Shown here in pieces: positions 3,729 to 62,137 of a stretch of 64,000 nt of DNA. The notes beneath the pieces are model-generated. The model was given only the letters and a program-made list of their open reading frames with translations, was not told the origin of the DNA and did no database searches. This stretch comes from Gimesia maris. Its GTDB lineage: Bacteria > Planctomycetota > Planctomycetia > Planctomycetales > Planctomycetaceae. The position numbers and the translations under genes were made by a program. Where the stretch lies: assembly GCF_008298035.1 (NCBI RefSeq), contig NZ_CP042910.1, forward strand, positions 2,929,001-2,993,000, read 5' to 3'. How positions within the stretch are numbered: the stretch's first letter is position 1; every line of letters starts with the position of its first letter.

Positions 3729-4028
3729 CCTGCGGATTCTCCTCAGATCAGAAACAGGTGCCTGCCATTAAGCGCATCACCGAACACAGGCGGTAACATT
3801 ATAACACAATCCGGGGAAATGCAGACAGGCTAGTTTAAAAAGGAGGCCATCCTCTTCAATATAATAAATGCCCGCATGACAAGTACAGGAAATAAGTTAG
3901 GGTTGTTTATTGTTGAATTGACATAAGTCATGTGAATCATCGACAATAGGAAAATAAGATCCTGGACAGATTACGGAATGTATTAATTCCTTCACTGAAG
4001 ACTGTACAGTCGGGAGAGACAGATCCGC

Positions 4029-6506
4029 ATGCCTTGCTTCAATCACTGCAGATTCAGATTCTTTGCTAAAGTTGTTTGCGGGATGCTTTTGTGGGCTGGT
4101 CTGCCATGGAACACGGTGAGTGTCGCTGAATCGAACAAAATCCCGCTGAAAGAATCGGCAAAAACACCCGTTGATTTCACGCAGGAGGTTCAACCCCTAC
4201 TGGCGAAACATTGCTACTCCTGCCATGGACCTGATGTGCAGGAAGGTGGATTACGTCTGGATCAGAGCGAGCTGGCATTCAGGAAGCTGGAATCAGAGGC
4301 GACAGCCGTTGTACCGAATCACCCGGACCAGAGTGAGCTGATTGCGCGTATCACATCCAAAGACGACAGTTTGCAGATGCCTCCTGAGGGAGAGCGACTC
4401 AAGCCCGAACAGATTCAGGTTCTTAGAAACTGGATCCAGCAGGGTGCGGAATGGAAAAAACACTGGGCGTTTCAACCACCAGAGCGGAAAAGTCCCCCCG
4501 AAACCAATCAGAGTCAGTGGGTGAAAAATCCGATTGATGCTTTTATCCTGGCCGGGCTGGAAGCAAAAGGGCTGACGCCTGCTCCTCCCGCAGATCGCGT
4601 GGCTTTGATCCGCCGCGTCTATTTTGATCTGACAGGACTGCCCCCTGCTCCGGAGGAAGTCGATCAGTTTGTAAATGATTCCTCTCCTGATGCGTACGAG
4701 AAACTGGTCGATCGCCTGCTGGCTTCCCCCCGGTATGGGGAACGCTGGGCGCGTCACTGGCTGGATCTGGTACGTTATGCTGACACGAACAGTTTCGAAC
4801 GGGATGGTGACAAGCCGAATGCCTGGCGATTTCGCGATTACGTCATCCGATTTTTTAACGAAGATAAACCTTACAGTCAGTTTATTAAAGAACAGCTGGC
4901 CGGGGATGAACTGGATCAGGTAACGAATGACACGATTATTGCGACCGGTTATTACCGTCTCGGCCTGTGGGATGACGAACCCGCGGATCCCCTTTTGAGT
5001 TATTACAACGAACTGGATGATATCGTTTCCACGACCAGCCAGGTCTTTCTGGGGCTGACTTTAAACTGCGCCCGCTGCCACGAACATAAAATCGATCCTG
5101 TTCCTCACGAAGATTATTATCGGTTCATGGCGTTTTTTCATGGTTTGAATTCCTATGGGACACGTGGAGATCAGCTGTCGTTTAACCAGACGGATATTAC
5201 CACTCCGGAACTGGCGGCGAAGTATGCTGAATACGATCAGCAGAAAAGTGAGCTGAAGAAAAAAATGCATGCGATCGAAGAGGCTGCAATCAAAAAGATG
5301 CCCGGTGTCGATCAGCGACGATCAGAAACTCGTGAACGGGGCAAACTGCTTAAAGAAAAACTGGCAGAATATCTGGAACCGGAACAGAGTCAGACCTATC
5401 AGGGATTAAAGGAAGAGTTAAAACAGCTGGAAGCAGAACGCAAAAAACTACCTCCCCGGAAAGCAGCACTCAGCGTCAGGCGGAGTCAGAAGGAGCCCCG
5501 TGAAACCTTTGTCCTGTTGCGGGGAAATCCGCACGTACGCGGTGATAAGGTAGAACCGGGCTTTCCGGAACTGTTTGGTAATACCCAGGCAAAAATTCCA
5601 GCGCCCGGGAAAAATCAACAAACTTCAGGCAGACGTCGTGTACTGGCGGAGTGGATTGCCGATGGTGACAATATGCTGACATCGCGGGTGATTGTCAATC
5701 GGATCTGGCAGCATCATTTTGGTCGGGGAATCGTGCAGTCTCCGAATAACTTCGGACAACTGGGCGTGCCTCCCACGCACCCGGAACTGCTGGACTGGCT
5801 GGCTCTGGAATTTGTCAAAGGAGGACAGCGATTCAAGGCATTTCATAAGCTGATCCTCATGTCGAATACGTATCAGATGTCATCCCGGTACTCAGAACAG
5901 GCGGCTGCCGTCGATCCGGCCAATGATCTTTTCTGGCGGTATAACATGCGACGACTGAGTGCAGAAGAGGTGCGTGATTCCATCCTCGCGGTGAATGGCC
6001 GTCTGAATCTGAAAATGTATGGCCCTGGGTTTTATCCGTTGATCTCTCAGGAAGTCTTGCAGGGACAATCTCAGCCGGGCAAAGGCTGGGGACATTCATC
6101 AGAAGAGGAGAGAGCCCGCCGGAGTGTTTATATTTTTGTAAAACGCTCACTGGTGACTCCCCTGCTCTTCAACTTTGACTTTGCCGATACGGACAGCAGT
6201 TGTGCGGTTCGCTTTGTCACTACGCAGCCGGCCCAGGCTTTGGGAATGATCAACGGCCAGTTTGCCAACCGACAGGCGGAACTGTTTGCAGAGCGACTGA
6301 TTGAGGAAGCGGGAACAGAGTATCCCCGGTTTGTCACACGGGCAATTCGTCTGGCATATGGACGTACGCCGCATACCGGTGAAGTGGATGACGGCGTTCA
6401 ACTGATAAAGCGACTGATGGAAAAGCATTCCCTTAAAGAAAAACAGGCGCTGGATTATTTCTGTCTGACGATTTTGAATCGGAATGAATTCGTCTATCTG
6501 GATTAA
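4029..6506 (+). CDS. PSCyt1/DUF1549/DUF1553 planctomycete cytochrome-type protein
   Basis: 825 residues. A signal peptide (hydrophobic core at about residues 11-30) precedes a c-type heme motif CYSCH at residues 62-66, matching the Planctomycete cytochrome c domain (PSCyt1). Residues about 150-360 contain the DUF1549 hallmarks (NPIDAFILAGLE, FDLTGLPP, RYGERWARHWLDLVRYADT) and CARCHEHKIDP, a second CxxCH motif. A charged coiled-coil-like insertion lies at about 390-480 (many K/E/Q). The C-terminal half is DUF1553 (RRVLAEWIADGDNMLTSRVIVNRIWQHHFG; SNTYQMSSRY). It is followed 59 bp downstream by a DUF1501 gene, the standard planctomycete pairing. The family is exported and linked by context to polysaccharide or sulfated-substrate metabolism, but its reaction is not established. 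A purine-rich GGGAGAG lies upstream of the chosen ATG. Confidence 0.93.
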   Translation: MPCFNHCRFRFFAKVVCGMLLWAGLPWNTVSVAESNKIPLKESAKTPVDFTQEVQPLLAKHCYSCHGPDVQEGGLRLDQSELAFRKLESEATAVVPNHPDQSELIARITSKDDSLQMPPEGERLKPEQIQVLRNWIQQGAEWKKHWAFQPPERKSPPETNQSQWVKNPIDAFILAGLEAKGLTPAPPADRVALIRRVYFDLTGLPPAPEEVDQFVNDSSPDAYEKLVDRLLASPRYGERWARHWLDLVRYADTNSFERDGDKPNAWRFRDYVIRFFNEDKPYSQFIKEQLAGDELDQVTNDTIIATGYYRLGLWDDEPADPLLSYYNELDDIVSTTSQVFLGLTLNCARCHEHKIDPVPHEDYYRFMAFFHGLNSYGTRGDQLSFNQTDITTPELAAKYAEYDQQKSELKKKMHAIEEAAIKKMPGVDQRRSETRERGKLLKEKLAEYLEPEQSQTYQGLKEELKQLEAERKKLPPRKAALSVRRSQKEPRETFVLLRGNPHVRGDKVEPGFPELFGNTQAKIPAPGKNQQTSGRRRVLAEWIADGDNMLTSRVIVNRIWQHHFGRGIVQSPNNFGQLGVPPTHPELLDWLALEFVKGGQRFKAFHKLILMSNTYQMSSRYSEQAAAVDPANDLFWRYNMRRLSAEEVRDSILAVNGRLNLKMYGPGFYPLISQEVLQGQSQPGKGWGHSSEEERARRSVYIFVKRSLVTPLLFNFDFADTDSSCAVRFVTTQPAQALGMINGQFANRQAELFAERLIEEAGTEYPRFVTRAIRLAYGRTPHTGEVDDGVQLIKRLMEKHSLKEKQALDYFCLTILNRNEFVYLD

Positions 6507-57383: not shown

Positions 57384-57785
57384 ATGCGCTTTTCTATATT
57401 CTCTTTGATTCTGTCTCAACTCTTCTTTGCCGCCGCCTATGGTCAGGAACAGCCACCGCTTCAGATCAGCTCTGATCACAGCTCAACCGGCTCCCCGCAG
57501 AGTAACATCAATATCACAAAAATTCCGTGGAATGCTGCTACCGGACCGGCGTATCAGCGAATGTCTGTCAGTCAGAAACTGATTCAGCAAAGAGCGTTTC
57601 TACAGGCACAACAGCGAATGCAGCGAATCAGTGCCCGCAAAGCGATGGGGATATCACCGGGCAGACCGACTATTTATGTGAATGTCACTCCGCTGCCAAC
57701 CTATTCTCAAATCATGCAGCAGTCAGCGTGGTATAACTACAATCCGTATCAATTCAATGGCTACTGGTACGGACCCGAATATTGA
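57384..57785 (+). CDS. Small exported protein of unknown function
   Basis: 133 residues. Signal peptide (LILSQLFFAAAYG, cleavage near residue 20). The mature part is Gln/Ser-rich with a helical middle (QKLIQQRAFLQAQQRMQR) and an aromatic tail (WYNYNPYQFNGYWYGPEY). No family recognised. GAGAGAGG lies before the ATG. It ends 18 bp from the convergent TfoX-N gene. Confidence 0.7.
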   Translation: MRFSIFSLILSQLFFAAAYGQEQPPLQISSDHSSTGSPQSNINITKIPWNAATGPAYQRMSVSQKLIQQRAFLQAQQRMQRISARKAMGISPGRPTIYVNVTPLPTYSQIMQQSAWYNYNPYQFNGYWYGPEY

Positions 57786-57803: not shown

Positions 57804-58136
57804 TCAATCTTTGGCGGGAAGTGACTGTGCAAACTTGACCGCCTGATGGATCCAGTATTTGAGATCTTCTGCACTTTCATACCCCGCCTGCTCTACATAG
57901 ATCATGCTTTTGAGCGGCTTGCCTGTGAAATCCATTTCGTGCGTGTCAGGTTCTTCCAGCGCTTTACGGGCATTTTTCTCTCCCAGTCTCAGCATCAGTC
58001 TTTCGCGTATTACACCACAACACATATTGCCGTGTAACATAAAGCAGATTCCGCCAAACATTTTTCGTTCTGAAAAGCCTTTGCGGCGTTTCAGCAGCAG
58101 GCGAACTCTTTGTGCCAGATCTTCATCGTACGCCAT
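57804..58136 (-). CDS. TfoX N-terminal-domain family protein
   Basis: 110 residues from ATG 58136 with GGAG 6 nt upstream; the frame is open to 58196, but those extra residues are basic and not family-like. FSERKMFGGICFMLHGNMCCGVI and the following LMLRLGEKNARKAL match the TfoX_N domain. MDFTGKPLKSMIYVEQAGYES also fits. No TfoX C-terminal domain. Function of stand-alone TfoX-N proteins is not established; in TfoX the domain is part of a competence regulator. Confidence 0.85.
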   Translation of the reverse strand: MAYDEDLAQRVRLLLKRRKGFSERKMFGGICFMLHGNMCCGVIRERLMLRLGEKNARKALEEPDTHEMDFTGKPLKSMIYVEQAGYESAEDLKYWIHQAVKFAQSLPAKD

Positions 58137-58275
58137 TTGATTCTCCAAACTGGATTTTTTTCTCAGCGACTTTCTTTTTACCAGAAAACTGAACAAACTG
58201 AGAGTAGTTGCTACTCTAAAATAGGGTTGAAAGTGTATCAGTTTCTGCTGAAAGTATAAAAGTGAGAGGATCGAA

Positions 58276-59190
58276 ATGGTATTGATTCGATTACTGGTCC
58301 TGGTCTGTCTGGTGGGAACCGGGATTTTGATTGAAACGTTGGCTGCTCAGAATGAGCAAACGAATTCCAAAACGGTAACGCACGCGGCCCAGTTTCATTC
58401 TCTGAGTATTCCCGGACTGGATAATGTCTTTCAGATCGACAGGCAGTTTTATTCGGGTAGTGGACCACATGGGGAACAGAGTTTTCAGGAACTCAAAAAA
58501 CTGGGCATTAAAACGATCGTCAGTGTGGATGGTACGACGCCCGATCTGGTACACGCGAGAAAAGCAGGGATGAAATATATTCATATCCCGATCGGGTATG
58601 ATGGTGTTTCCGAGGACGCTGGCCTGGCTTTTGCGCGAGTGGCGCGGGATTTGAATGGACCGGTTTATATTCACTGTCATCATGGCAAACATCGTGGTCC
58701 GACGGCAGCAGCAGTAGTCGGGCTGTGCCGAGGCAGCCTGGATCAGAATAGTGCTCTGCAGTTTCTGACACAGGCGGGGACAAGTAAGGATTACTCCGGG
58801 CTCTGGAATGATGTGAAAACTTTCAAGGTCCCTGAAGCCAATGCGATCCTGCCTGAACTGGTTGAAACAGCCAAAGTTCCTCCCATGGTGACTGCAATGA
58901 CGCTGATCAGCCACAATTTTGAATTGGCGGGCAAGTTACAGCAGAGTAAACCCGGGGATCAAAAGGAAAGGCTGCGGGTTTTAGTGCTGCTGCGCGAAGA
59001 GTTACACGAAACTGCACGCAAATACTCTGATGATTATGATGAGATGTTCAAACAGTGGCTGGCAGAATCAGAAGCGCAGGTAAAAGAACTGGAGGCGGCT
59101 GTTCAACAGGGAAATCAGCAGGCGTTTTCAACCGGTATGAAAAACCTGAAGTCGCAGTGCAAACGTTGTCATAAAGCCTATCGGGACTGA
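58276..59190 (+). CDS. Exported tyrosine/dual-specificity phosphatase fused to a c-type heme motif
   Basis: 304 residues. Signal peptide at residues 1-24 (LLVLVCLVGTGILIETLAA). Residues about 50-185 are a dual-specificity/tyrosine phosphatase-like domain with the complete P-loop HCHHGKHR (Cys134, Arg140). IKTIVSVDGTTPD and YIHIPIGYDGV are the typical preceding strands. The C-terminal about 100 residues are helical (REELHETARKYSDDYDEMF) and end with CKRCH at 295-299, a covalent heme-binding motif in the position found in cytochrome c'/c556-type helical bundles. So it is probably a periplasmic phosphatase with a heme-dependent partner domain. A fusion of these two domains is unusual; function unknown. 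Confidence 0.82.
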   Translation: MVLIRLLVLVCLVGTGILIETLAAQNEQTNSKTVTHAAQFHSLSIPGLDNVFQIDRQFYSGSGPHGEQSFQELKKLGIKTIVSVDGTTPDLVHARKAGMKYIHIPIGYDGVSEDAGLAFARVARDLNGPVYIHCHHGKHRGPTAAAVVGLCRGSLDQNSALQFLTQAGTSKDYSGLWNDVKTFKVPEANAILPELVETAKVPPMVTAMTLISHNFELAGKLQQSKPGDQKERLRVLVLLREELHETARKYSDDYDEMFKQWLAESEAQVKELEAAVQQGNQQAFSTGMKNLKSQCKRCHKAYRD

Positions 59191-60867: not shown

Positions 60868-60997
60868 AACGATACCAGTTCAGAGGTTTGGAAAATTAAG
60901 ACAAGAAAATCAGTAGAAAAAGCGATTAAGTTGTTGAGAATCATAGCAGGGCTGGGTGATAATGCACCCTCATTATTATTTAATATCAGGTAGGTCT

Positions 60998-62137
60998 ATG
61001 CGAATTAAATCCACGTTATTATGGCTCTGTCTTATCATGGTGGCAGGTCCTGTCGGCACGGCTCAGGCAGAAGACGGTGTCACCCGAAAACGGTCAGAGC
61101 CAGCGAGCATCAACTCATCCTGGGATGATCTGCTTGACGGCATTGATACTCCGGAAGATTGGATTGAGCATAAAAAGGTGCTCAAAAAACGCTATCTAAA
61201 CCTGATCCGAGACCAGTTCAAACCTGATAAACCAGACCTGCAAATTCAGTTTCATGATACGGTGATCGTGGATGGTGTCTATCGCCGACAATTGATCAGT
61301 TATCAGGTCGAAGATGATGAACGGGCGCATGCTTACCTGGGAGTCCCTTTGTTCTTGCGGGGACCGGCTCCTGCGGTCGTTGCTTTGCATGGAACTTATA
61401 AACAGGGAAAATCGCGGGCAGCCGGTCTGATTGAGAATCCCGATAAAGCCTACCTGGATCATTTATGTCGGCGAGGATACGTGGTGATTGCTCCCGACCA
61501 TTTTGTTGCCGGTCACCGCATTCCCAAAGCAGGTCCTTACGATACCGAGGCATTTTACAAAAAACATCCCGAGTGGACTGCTGTGGGCAAATTTACCTAC
61601 GAGCACTCGATTGCCATCGATGTGCTGCAGACAATGAAAGAAGTAGTGCCCGATAAAATTGGGGTGCTGGGACATTCTCTGGGCGGGCATGGATCGATGT
61701 TTCTCGCAGCCTATGATGATCGTGTCCAGGCCGCCGCTGGTAACTGCAGTGCCTCTTTTTTCCGCCAGAACTCAAAAGTGGAAGCCTGGTCCCGCGATCA
61801 CTGGTATATCTACTTTAAACACATCCGCCCTGACCTGTTGAAAGGGGAACTGCCTCCGATTGACTTTCATGAAATCATGGCTCTGATCGCGCCGCGGGCT
61901 TTTCTGGACCTGTCCGGACTGAATGATGGAGATCCCCTGACTCAACGCCAGCGAGTGCTGATGTTACTCAAAGTCATGGATGTGTACGAACTGGAAAAGG
62001 CACCGCAGAACTTCGCATTTTTTGTACACGGAAAAGGTCATTCTGTCGCGCATGAATCACGCGAGTTGATGTATGGCTGGATGGATTCGCATCTGAAGCC
62101 ATCCGCGGCAACAAAAACAAAACTGGTAACACCCTGA
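60998..62137 (+). CDS. Exported alpha/beta hydrolase (dienelactone hydrolase/acetyl-xylan-esterase-like)
   Basis: 379 residues from ATG 60998, which opens a signal peptide (LLWLCLIMVAGPVGTAQA); the open frame extends upstream to 60956. The nucleophile elbow is GHSLGGHG (Ser about residue 227), with the oxyanion strand VVALHGTYKQ, the acid near GLNDGDPLTQ and the His in HGKGHSVAHE. Planctomycete proteins of this kind are often esterases acting on polysaccharide acyl groups, which is inference. It starts 130 bp from the divergent transglutaminase-like gene and is 23 bp before sixA. Confidence 0.85.
   Translation: MRIKSTLLWLCLIMVAGPVGTAQAEDGVTRKRSEPASINSSWDDLLDGIDTPEDWIEHKKVLKKRYLNLIRDQFKPDKPDLQIQFHDTVIVDGVYRRQLISYQVEDDERAHAYLGVPLFLRGPAPAVVALHGTYKQGKSRAAGLIENPDKAYLDHLCRRGYVVIAPDHFVAGHRIPKAGPYDTEAFYKKHPEWTAVGKFTYEHSIAIDVLQTMKEVVPDKIGVLGHSLGGHGSMFLAAYDDRVQAAAGNCSASFFRQNSKVEAWSRDHWYIYFKHIRPDLLKGELPPIDFHEIMALIAPRAFLDLSGLNDGDPLTQRQRVLMLLKVMDVYELEKAPQNFAFFVHGKGHSVAHESRELMYGWMDSHLKPSAATKTKLVTP

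Follow-up and report, generated by a model that had tools for sequence, protein, structure and literature searches.

A 304-residue protein encoded by Gimesia maris almost certainly consists of two domains, judging from its sequence and structural model: a phosphatase-type domain with the DSP/PTP fold is followed by a domain of the class II cytochrome c type. The protein is a real and new pairing of domains, each of known fold. Its N-terminus is of the export type, the motifs of both domains are conserved among relatives, and the two motifs occur together nearly universally. We know of no characterised phosphatase-haem c fusion, and no description of one was found in the open-licence PMC literature. 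The gene lies in the 64,000-nucleotide stretch of contig NZ_CP042910.1 (positions 2,929,001 to 2,993,000) that was analysed, hereafter called the window, and has the following features in window coordinates.

58276..59190 (stop included), plus strand: fusion gene, 304 amino acids, DSP/PTP fold and class II cytochrome c (open reading frame, Pfam, AlphaFold2 model)
58276..58347, plus strand: hydrophobic export segment, residues 1-24, with its end set by eye (sequence)
58396..58860, plus strand: PTP/DSP-fold domain, residues 41-195 (fold matches to TpbA 4r0s_B and DSP23/VHZ 2img)
58600..58602, plus strand: Asp109, candidate general acid (phmmer alignment with TpbA Asp105)
58672..58695, plus strand: P-loop H133-C134-X5-R140, HCHHGKHR (sequence, conservation)
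58873..59187, plus strand: class II cytochrome c four-helix bundle, residues 200-304 (Pfam PF01322 at 256-303, model, 6r6m_A match)
58897..58899, plus strand: Met208, candidate sixth haem ligand (invariance, fold-range offsets)
59158..59172, plus strand: CKRCH haem-c attachment motif, residues 295-299 (sequence, conservation)
59182..59184, plus strand: Arg303, four residues past the haem His (conservation; same spacing in cytochromes c')

The original prediction had placed an HCX5R loop and a C-terminal CxxCH on one exported-type polypeptide, and all three elements are present, the loop at residues 133-140, CKRCH at residues 295-299 and a hydrophobic segment at the N-terminus. By a simple Kyte-Doolittle test, a hydrophobic stretch also lies ahead of the domain in 77 of 80 named relatives. 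CxxCH occurs three times in the 22,277 residues of six-frame open stretches of at least 150 amino acids in the window, once in the fusion gene and twice in one other cytochrome-looking frame. An 835-residue frame at 3999-6503 (plus strand) with two CxxCH motifs is probably a cytochrome protein of planctomycete type.

Pfam recognises Cytochrom_C_2 at residues 256-303 of the window protein (33.4 bits against a cut-off of 26.5). DSP and PTP families match within residues 53-166 under their cut-offs, the nearest being Tc-R-P (26.7 against 27), with DSPc at 22.9 against 33.5. When the window protein and 79 relatives were scanned singly, Tc-R-P, a DSP family, matched 71 of the 80 rows at E 0.01 and Cytochrom_C_2 matched 70. 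Compared with PDB sequences, the phosphatase half matched TpbA at E 4e-6 and the PRL phosphatases at E 1e-3, and a profile of the cytochrome half, by way of its C-terminal half, found class II cytochromes at E 1e-5.

The AlphaFold2 model of the full protein, built from the window protein and 79 relatives, has a mean pLDDT of 91.5 and a pTM of 0.84 and shows a PTP-like fold followed by four helices (residues 203-222, 226-250, 256-277 and 281-303). In VIA-align comparisons of this model, residues ~41-195 matched DSP23/VHZ (2img; Z 16.8, rmsd 2.4, 140 aligned) and TpbA (4r0s_B; Z 16.7, rmsd 3.0, 153 aligned), and residues 202-304 matched the Kuenenia NaxLS chain 6r6o_A (Z 15.6, rmsd 1.6, 101 aligned). 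Because phosphatases filled the match lists of the full model, the C-terminal domain was also modelled separately (pLDDT 89.2). NaxLS again headed the list (6r6m_A; Z 15.0, rmsd 1.9, 101 aligned), which also contains b562-type chains at lower ranks. Designed bundles reach Z 14.2 and 14.1, within 1 of NaxLS; the NaxLS match counts as tied with them and is close to chance for helical bundles. Foldseek listed cytochromes c' first for this domain, with a weak best E value (5.5e-3, to a cytochrome c'), and gave its highest TM-score to NaxLS (0.82, against up to 0.73 for other listed rows outside NaxLS). The protein thus has what characterises class I Cys-PTPs and DSPs (a PTP fold with Z 16-17 to DSPs, an HCX5R loop and an upstream Asp) and class II cytochromes c of PF01322 (a four-helix bundle with a C-terminal CxxCH).

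Conservation was examined in two sets of relatives. The named set holds the best 80 of 480 confirmed loci from a scan that used the loop as one of its two patterns. Cys134 and Arg140 are present in all 80 of these partly loop-selected loci, and both haem cysteines, His299, Met208 and Arg303 are present in all 79 that reach the cytochrome, the remaining one (L075) being cut by its contig end. A pattern-free set from whole-protein and profile searches gave 60 loci and 47 distinct rows, of which one is the window gene and 12 are common to the named set. Here the loop Cys and Arg were found in 45/45 relatives with a loop and CxxCH plus Met208 in 46/46; the contig-cut L029 is without the loop part. 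With the window protein included, Met208 is Met in 80/80 lettered rows of the named set and 47/47 pattern-free rows, and Arg303 is Arg in 80/80 and 46/47, the exception (L025) stopping earlier. Asp109 is slightly more variable (77/81 and 42/46 rows). Val84-Asp85 is found in 81/81 rows of the named set plus window, where the stand-alone relatives compared read NLR. His135 is not universal (Phe in L145, L146 and L159, Lys in L156), and Cys149, the sole further Cys that is frequent in the helix after the loop, occurs in 50/81 rows. An orthologue without CxxCH or without the Cys134/Arg140 pair, a case named beforehand as refuting the proposal, was absent from both tallied sets (79/79 and 45/45). 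Retention of the motifs is less uniform beyond these tallies: L143 has an altered loop that keeps Cys and Arg, L158 is without CxxCH in the frames printed, and three relatives are split.

The domain pair recurs in other planctomycetes: by hand count, the fusion profile has matches at E 1e-50 or better in about 130 of 392 planctomycete genomes. A search of the phylum at E 1e-10 or better matched 186 of 392, ordinary stand-alone phosphatases included. Given the former number and the presence of the fusion in isolates, a chance origin or artefact, such as a gene fusion error or a spurious CxxCH, has a practically negligible probability, and nothing was found in its favour. Of 16 other genomes of the window's genus, 12 carry the gene at nearly full length and one carries a copy cut by the contig end; the gene is absent from the remaining three, two of which are 96 and 99% complete. 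Cultured Singulisphaera, Rhodopirellula and Blastopirellula species carry the fusion family. Loci outside the planctomycetes, with metagenome bins among the sources, come from Verrucomicrobia, Lentisphaeria, Hydrogenedentota, Sumerlaeota and Bacteroidales. The Verrucomicrobia loci look sporadic, because, of the 194 genomes in the phylum to which L070 (a verrucomicrobial single-cell genome) belongs, only the query genome itself matched at E 1e-30. Two planctomycete plasmid records of relatives are named 'dual specificity protein phosphatase' and 'hypothetical protein'; the former, WP_148599161.1 from an Aquisphaera giovannonii plasmid (86% coverage, 34% identity), bears a name that omits the cytochrome domain.

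The CX5R spacing and Asp109 fit class I Cys phosphatases, and from the sequence and the model we consider chemistry of the Cys-phosphatase type probable. The closest solved structure by sequence, and one of the best by fold, is TpbA (PA3885), a periplasmic dual-specificity phosphatase of Pseudomonas aeruginosa that presumably has no haem domain. TpbA likewise has an HCX5R loop and an acid Asp at the equivalent place, and PMC4409338 gives the role of this Asp105 and the loop HCKHGNNR. The residue after the loop Arg is Thr in TpbA and Ser in VHR, unlike Gly141 of the fusion protein. Position 141 is Gly in 68, Ser in 10 and Ala in 3 of 81 rows, and the window protein lacks the usual Ser/Thr; the loop ends in HRGP in 66, HRSP in 10, HRAP in 3 and HRGS in 1 of the 80 named relatives. 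The residue before the Arg is His in the fusion family as opposed to Asp in stand-alone relatives. A Ser or Thr after the Arg is usual but not defining: the PRL phosphatases (PTP4A), which are eukaryotic, are not known to carry haem and share the PTP fold of the N-terminal domain, have a small residue and then Pro at this point. With Gly141 in place of Ser/Thr, turnover may be slow.

Motif and model together make it very likely that the C-terminal domain binds haem, and covalent attachment is likely because of the export-type N-terminus and the cytochrome-assembly matches in the genome. Two Cytochrom_C_asm matches in G. maris exceed the cut-off; one of them, next to a frame resembling hemA, may be something other than a haem lyase. 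The proposed ligands are His299 and, on the distal side, Met208, whose equivalence to residues in other cytochromes was derived from fold ranges, not from sequence alignment. Range offsets place Met208 (residue 14 of the C-domain model) at residue 32 of 6r6m, with 13-14% identity, and place Met208 and His299 at residues 7 and 102 of b562-type chains such as 5l31_C and 8den_A. We take Met7 and His102 to be the haem ligands of cytochrome b562; a sequence-profile alignment with this cytochrome covers the last helices only and pairs His299 with the b562 His. In NaxLS, residue 32 is Cys by the entry titles; the depositors mutated it (entries titled C32G and C32M/C101M), and Cys is presumably the distal haem ligand there. 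Because Met208 is invariant and, by these fold ranges, occupies the position of the distal ligand, a six-coordinate His/Met resting haem appears likelier from the model than an open gas-binding site.

The C-terminal domain had been described as a helical domain like cytochrome c'. The four-helix fold is right, but the invariant Met208 points to a six-coordinate His/Met haem and argues against a five-coordinate cytochrome c' proper. As in cytochromes c' and PF01322, the bundle carries a C-terminal CxxCH and an Arg four residues past the His (CHxxYR in the PDB alignments of cytochromes c'). Unlike cytochromes c', the domain has about 105 residues, has the Met at the distal place and is joined to a phosphatase. 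NaxLS (Kusta0087/0088) of the planctomycete Kuenenia stuttgartiensis, the first-listed fold match, is instead a complex that pairs two small cytochromes, for which a role as electron carriers is discussed (PMC8388095). A second class II cytochrome domain in the G. maris genome belongs to a 384-residue lipoprotein-like protein (L172, G000:C1 near 3901416) with a C-terminal CTECHSEYK, which adjoins a frame that looks by eye like a trypsin-like protease.

Both sets of relatives favour full-length matches, and partial matches were therefore also examined. Seventeen further regions were hand-picked from partial or weak matches and fetched in search of members without CxxCH. Seven are ordinary HCxxGxDRT phosphatases and ten have the family-type loop HCxxGxHR. 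Among these ten, four are fused with CxxCH (L153, L154, L159, L167), two are contig-cut (L151, L152) and three are split (L155-L157); in the last, L158, CxxCH is absent from the three frames printed. The weak planctomycete matches L148-L150 and L160-L166 are ordinary DSPs with an HCxxGxDRT-type loop and no cytochrome. In the split state (G059, G186 and G197), the family loop lies in a phosphatase frame, and a separate frame just after it encodes a helical domain together with a segment that resembles a signal or lipoprotein sequence. The second frames carry CAQCH or CVECH, the third being contig-cut ahead of the motif (L157, G197). In L156, no ATG precedes the hydrophobic segment of the second frame, and this split may be a frameshift. 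The phosphatase frame of L157 lacks a signal segment and is extended on either side; by eye, this region (L157:19-972, reverse-complement numbering) has foreign-looking sequence ahead of the phosphatase and, behind it, what seems to be another copy of the domain in degenerate form.

A tree of 44 rows (the window protein, 30 of the 80 named loci, three split and ten stand-alone relatives) sets the stand-alone rows on one side (100/99) and unites all 31 fused rows in a single clade (99/97), with the three split rows placed between these two groups. The order of the split rows is unsure because they sit on branches of 1.07 to 1.82, of which two were flagged as long, and their grouping is unsupported (37/0). 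The simplest reading is that the fusion arose from a stand-alone phosphatase by way of adjacent genes. The fusion is old, and the relatives examined nearly always retain it as a unit.

The gene neighbourhoods were clustered from 680 frames at 81 loci (80 relatives and the window), and no conserved kinase, sensor or redox partner was found among the 22 top clusters printed. The neighbourhoods are mostly not conserved and thus do not indicate a substrate or partner kinase. An alpha/beta hydrolase gene lies downstream in nine loci, including the window (60956-62137), as identified by Pfam on the window and L058 copies. Directly upstream of the gene in the window are a small exported-looking protein and a TfoX_N-domain protein encoded on the opposite strand (57384-57785 and 57804-58196), clustered homologues of which are found at the same place in L031 and L032.

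Some relatives carry additional domains. An alkaline phosphatase (PF00245) is fused N-terminally in L042:3015-5525 and L065:4282-6792, and L058:4282-6792 appears to be a third such fusion, judged from the same length of 837 residues. A homologous alkaline-phosphatase-type gene is directly upstream in L045, L053, L068, L072 and L077. Pfam was run on L042 among the fused forms (E 1.6e-42) and on L053:715-2493 among the upstream copies (E 1.9e-42); because both matches stop at profile position 318 of 423, the C-terminal part of the alkaline phosphatase seems to be missing. The module also stands behind Na+-dependent nucleoside transporter domains in L144:957-3272 (plus strand, G406) and behind a Na/Ca exchanger in L143:1982-3790 (minus strand, G317), where CTRCH and the Met are kept despite the loop TCETGRDR. 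The long frames of L141 and L145 were discounted as N-terminal fusions because their upstream translation looks odd by eye. These neighbour and fusion hints fit phosphoester work outside the cytoplasm.

We propose that the protein would be exported to the periplasm or cell surface, where the Cys134-Arg140 loop of its DSP/PTP domain would hold a phosphate ester or similar oxyanion, with Cys134 as the attacking residue and Asp109 as the acid. The class II cytochrome c domain would bind a single haem covalently, with His299 and probably Met208 as ligands. The redox state of this haem, or electrons passing through it, would most likely determine how reactive the phosphatase is: the haem might, for example, keep Cys134 reduced in an oxidising compartment or switch the enzyme off. 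Weighed against its rivals, this whole chain to a redox-controlled, haem-c-coupled exported Cys phosphatase is a tentative reading with a little less than an even chance, and the redox coupling itself is plausible rather than probable; we infer haem loading, His/Met ligation and phosphoesterase chemistry. The proposal draws on the co-conservation of the motifs, the high-confidence folds, CX5R with Asp109, the split state, the tree, the Cytochrom_C_asm matches, and the alkaline phosphatase fusions and upstream genes. Against it stand Gly141, the absence of Asp109 from 4/81 and 4/46 rows, the DSP scores under the Pfam cut-offs, the altered loop of L143, the mostly unconserved neighbourhoods and the near-chance fold match of the cytochrome. 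More speculatively, the family may represent a new class of extracytoplasmic Cys phosphatases (perhaps PRL-like phosphocysteine switches, perhaps oxyanion reductases) gated by a covalently attached His/Met haem c, assembled stepwise from adjacent phosphatase and cytochrome genes in planctomycetes and sporadic in other phyla, that provides a redox- or gas-controlled phosphate signal outside the cytoplasm; we regard this as somewhat doubtful. If true, it would tie phosphate signalling or phosphoester use directly to the periplasmic redox state. The family is widespread in Planctomycetota, occurs in cultured species and is small enough for expression and assay.

Cross-talk between the domains is hypothetical, and the haem domain could instead serve for docking or carry electrons. 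It might tether the protein to, or carry electrons for, another enzyme, with the phosphatase working independently and the fusion merely co-localising the two. The role of electron carrier discussed for the top-listed fold match NaxLS (PMC8388095) is in line with this, as are the fusions to alkaline phosphatase, nucleoside transporter and Na/Ca exchanger, which show that the module tolerates varied company. We consider it rather unlikely, because no fused copy lacks either motif among 79 and 45 complete relatives and the parts stay adjacent in the three split cases. Coupling to a gas rather than to redox state would require NO, CO or O2 to change phosphatase activity by binding at the haem, either at an open site or by displacing Met208. 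Displacement of Met by gas is known from the His/Met haem sensors EcDOS and RcoM, the class II fold is related to that of cytochrome c', some of whose listed PDB entries are NO or CO complexes, and Arg303 is conserved as in c'. Met208, however, is invariant at the distal place and the resting haem is probably six-coordinate, which makes redox coupling likelier than an open-site sensor and gas sensing as a whole quite unlikely.

Other alternatives concern the chemistry at Cys134. The phosphatase domain might act as a binder or sensor with a long-lived phosphocysteine, such as the PRLs form, rather than as a turnover enzyme, and haem redox would then read or reset its state. The R-G-P, R-S-P and R-A-P loop ends counted above resemble the R-A-P end of the PRL loop, and PRL-1 and the phosphocysteine structure 9mex are among the fold matches. 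This reading is decidedly unlikely, however, given that TpbA is closer by sequence than the PRLs and that no CNNM-type partner was found among the top 22 neighbourhood clusters. A haem-coupled oxyanion or sulfur redox enzyme, in which Cys134 would bind, for example, arsenate or carry a persulfide while the haem gives or takes electrons, is very unlikely. CX5R loops do occur in the arsenate reductases Acr2/ArsC, and NCBIfam reports a weak similarity to the Blh sulfurtransferase (E 8e-7; 28.3 bits, where the cut-off is 625), but Asp109 fits a phosphatase acid and the further Cys149 is found in 50/81 rows only. DUF442/TIGR01244/Blh proteins belong to the same fold family (DUF442 3gxg, Z 15.7). 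A Blh/DUF442-type sulfurtransferase was dropped as the best reading because the two TIGR01244-like proteins of the G. maris genome (L169 and L170, both below the family cut-off) have the CX4R loop HCKSGKR, whereas the fusion has the CX5R loop HCHHGKHR. L170 (G000:C1:6447947-6448327) shares its locus with a 482-residue frame that by eye resembles a persulfide dioxygenase with rhodanese domains.
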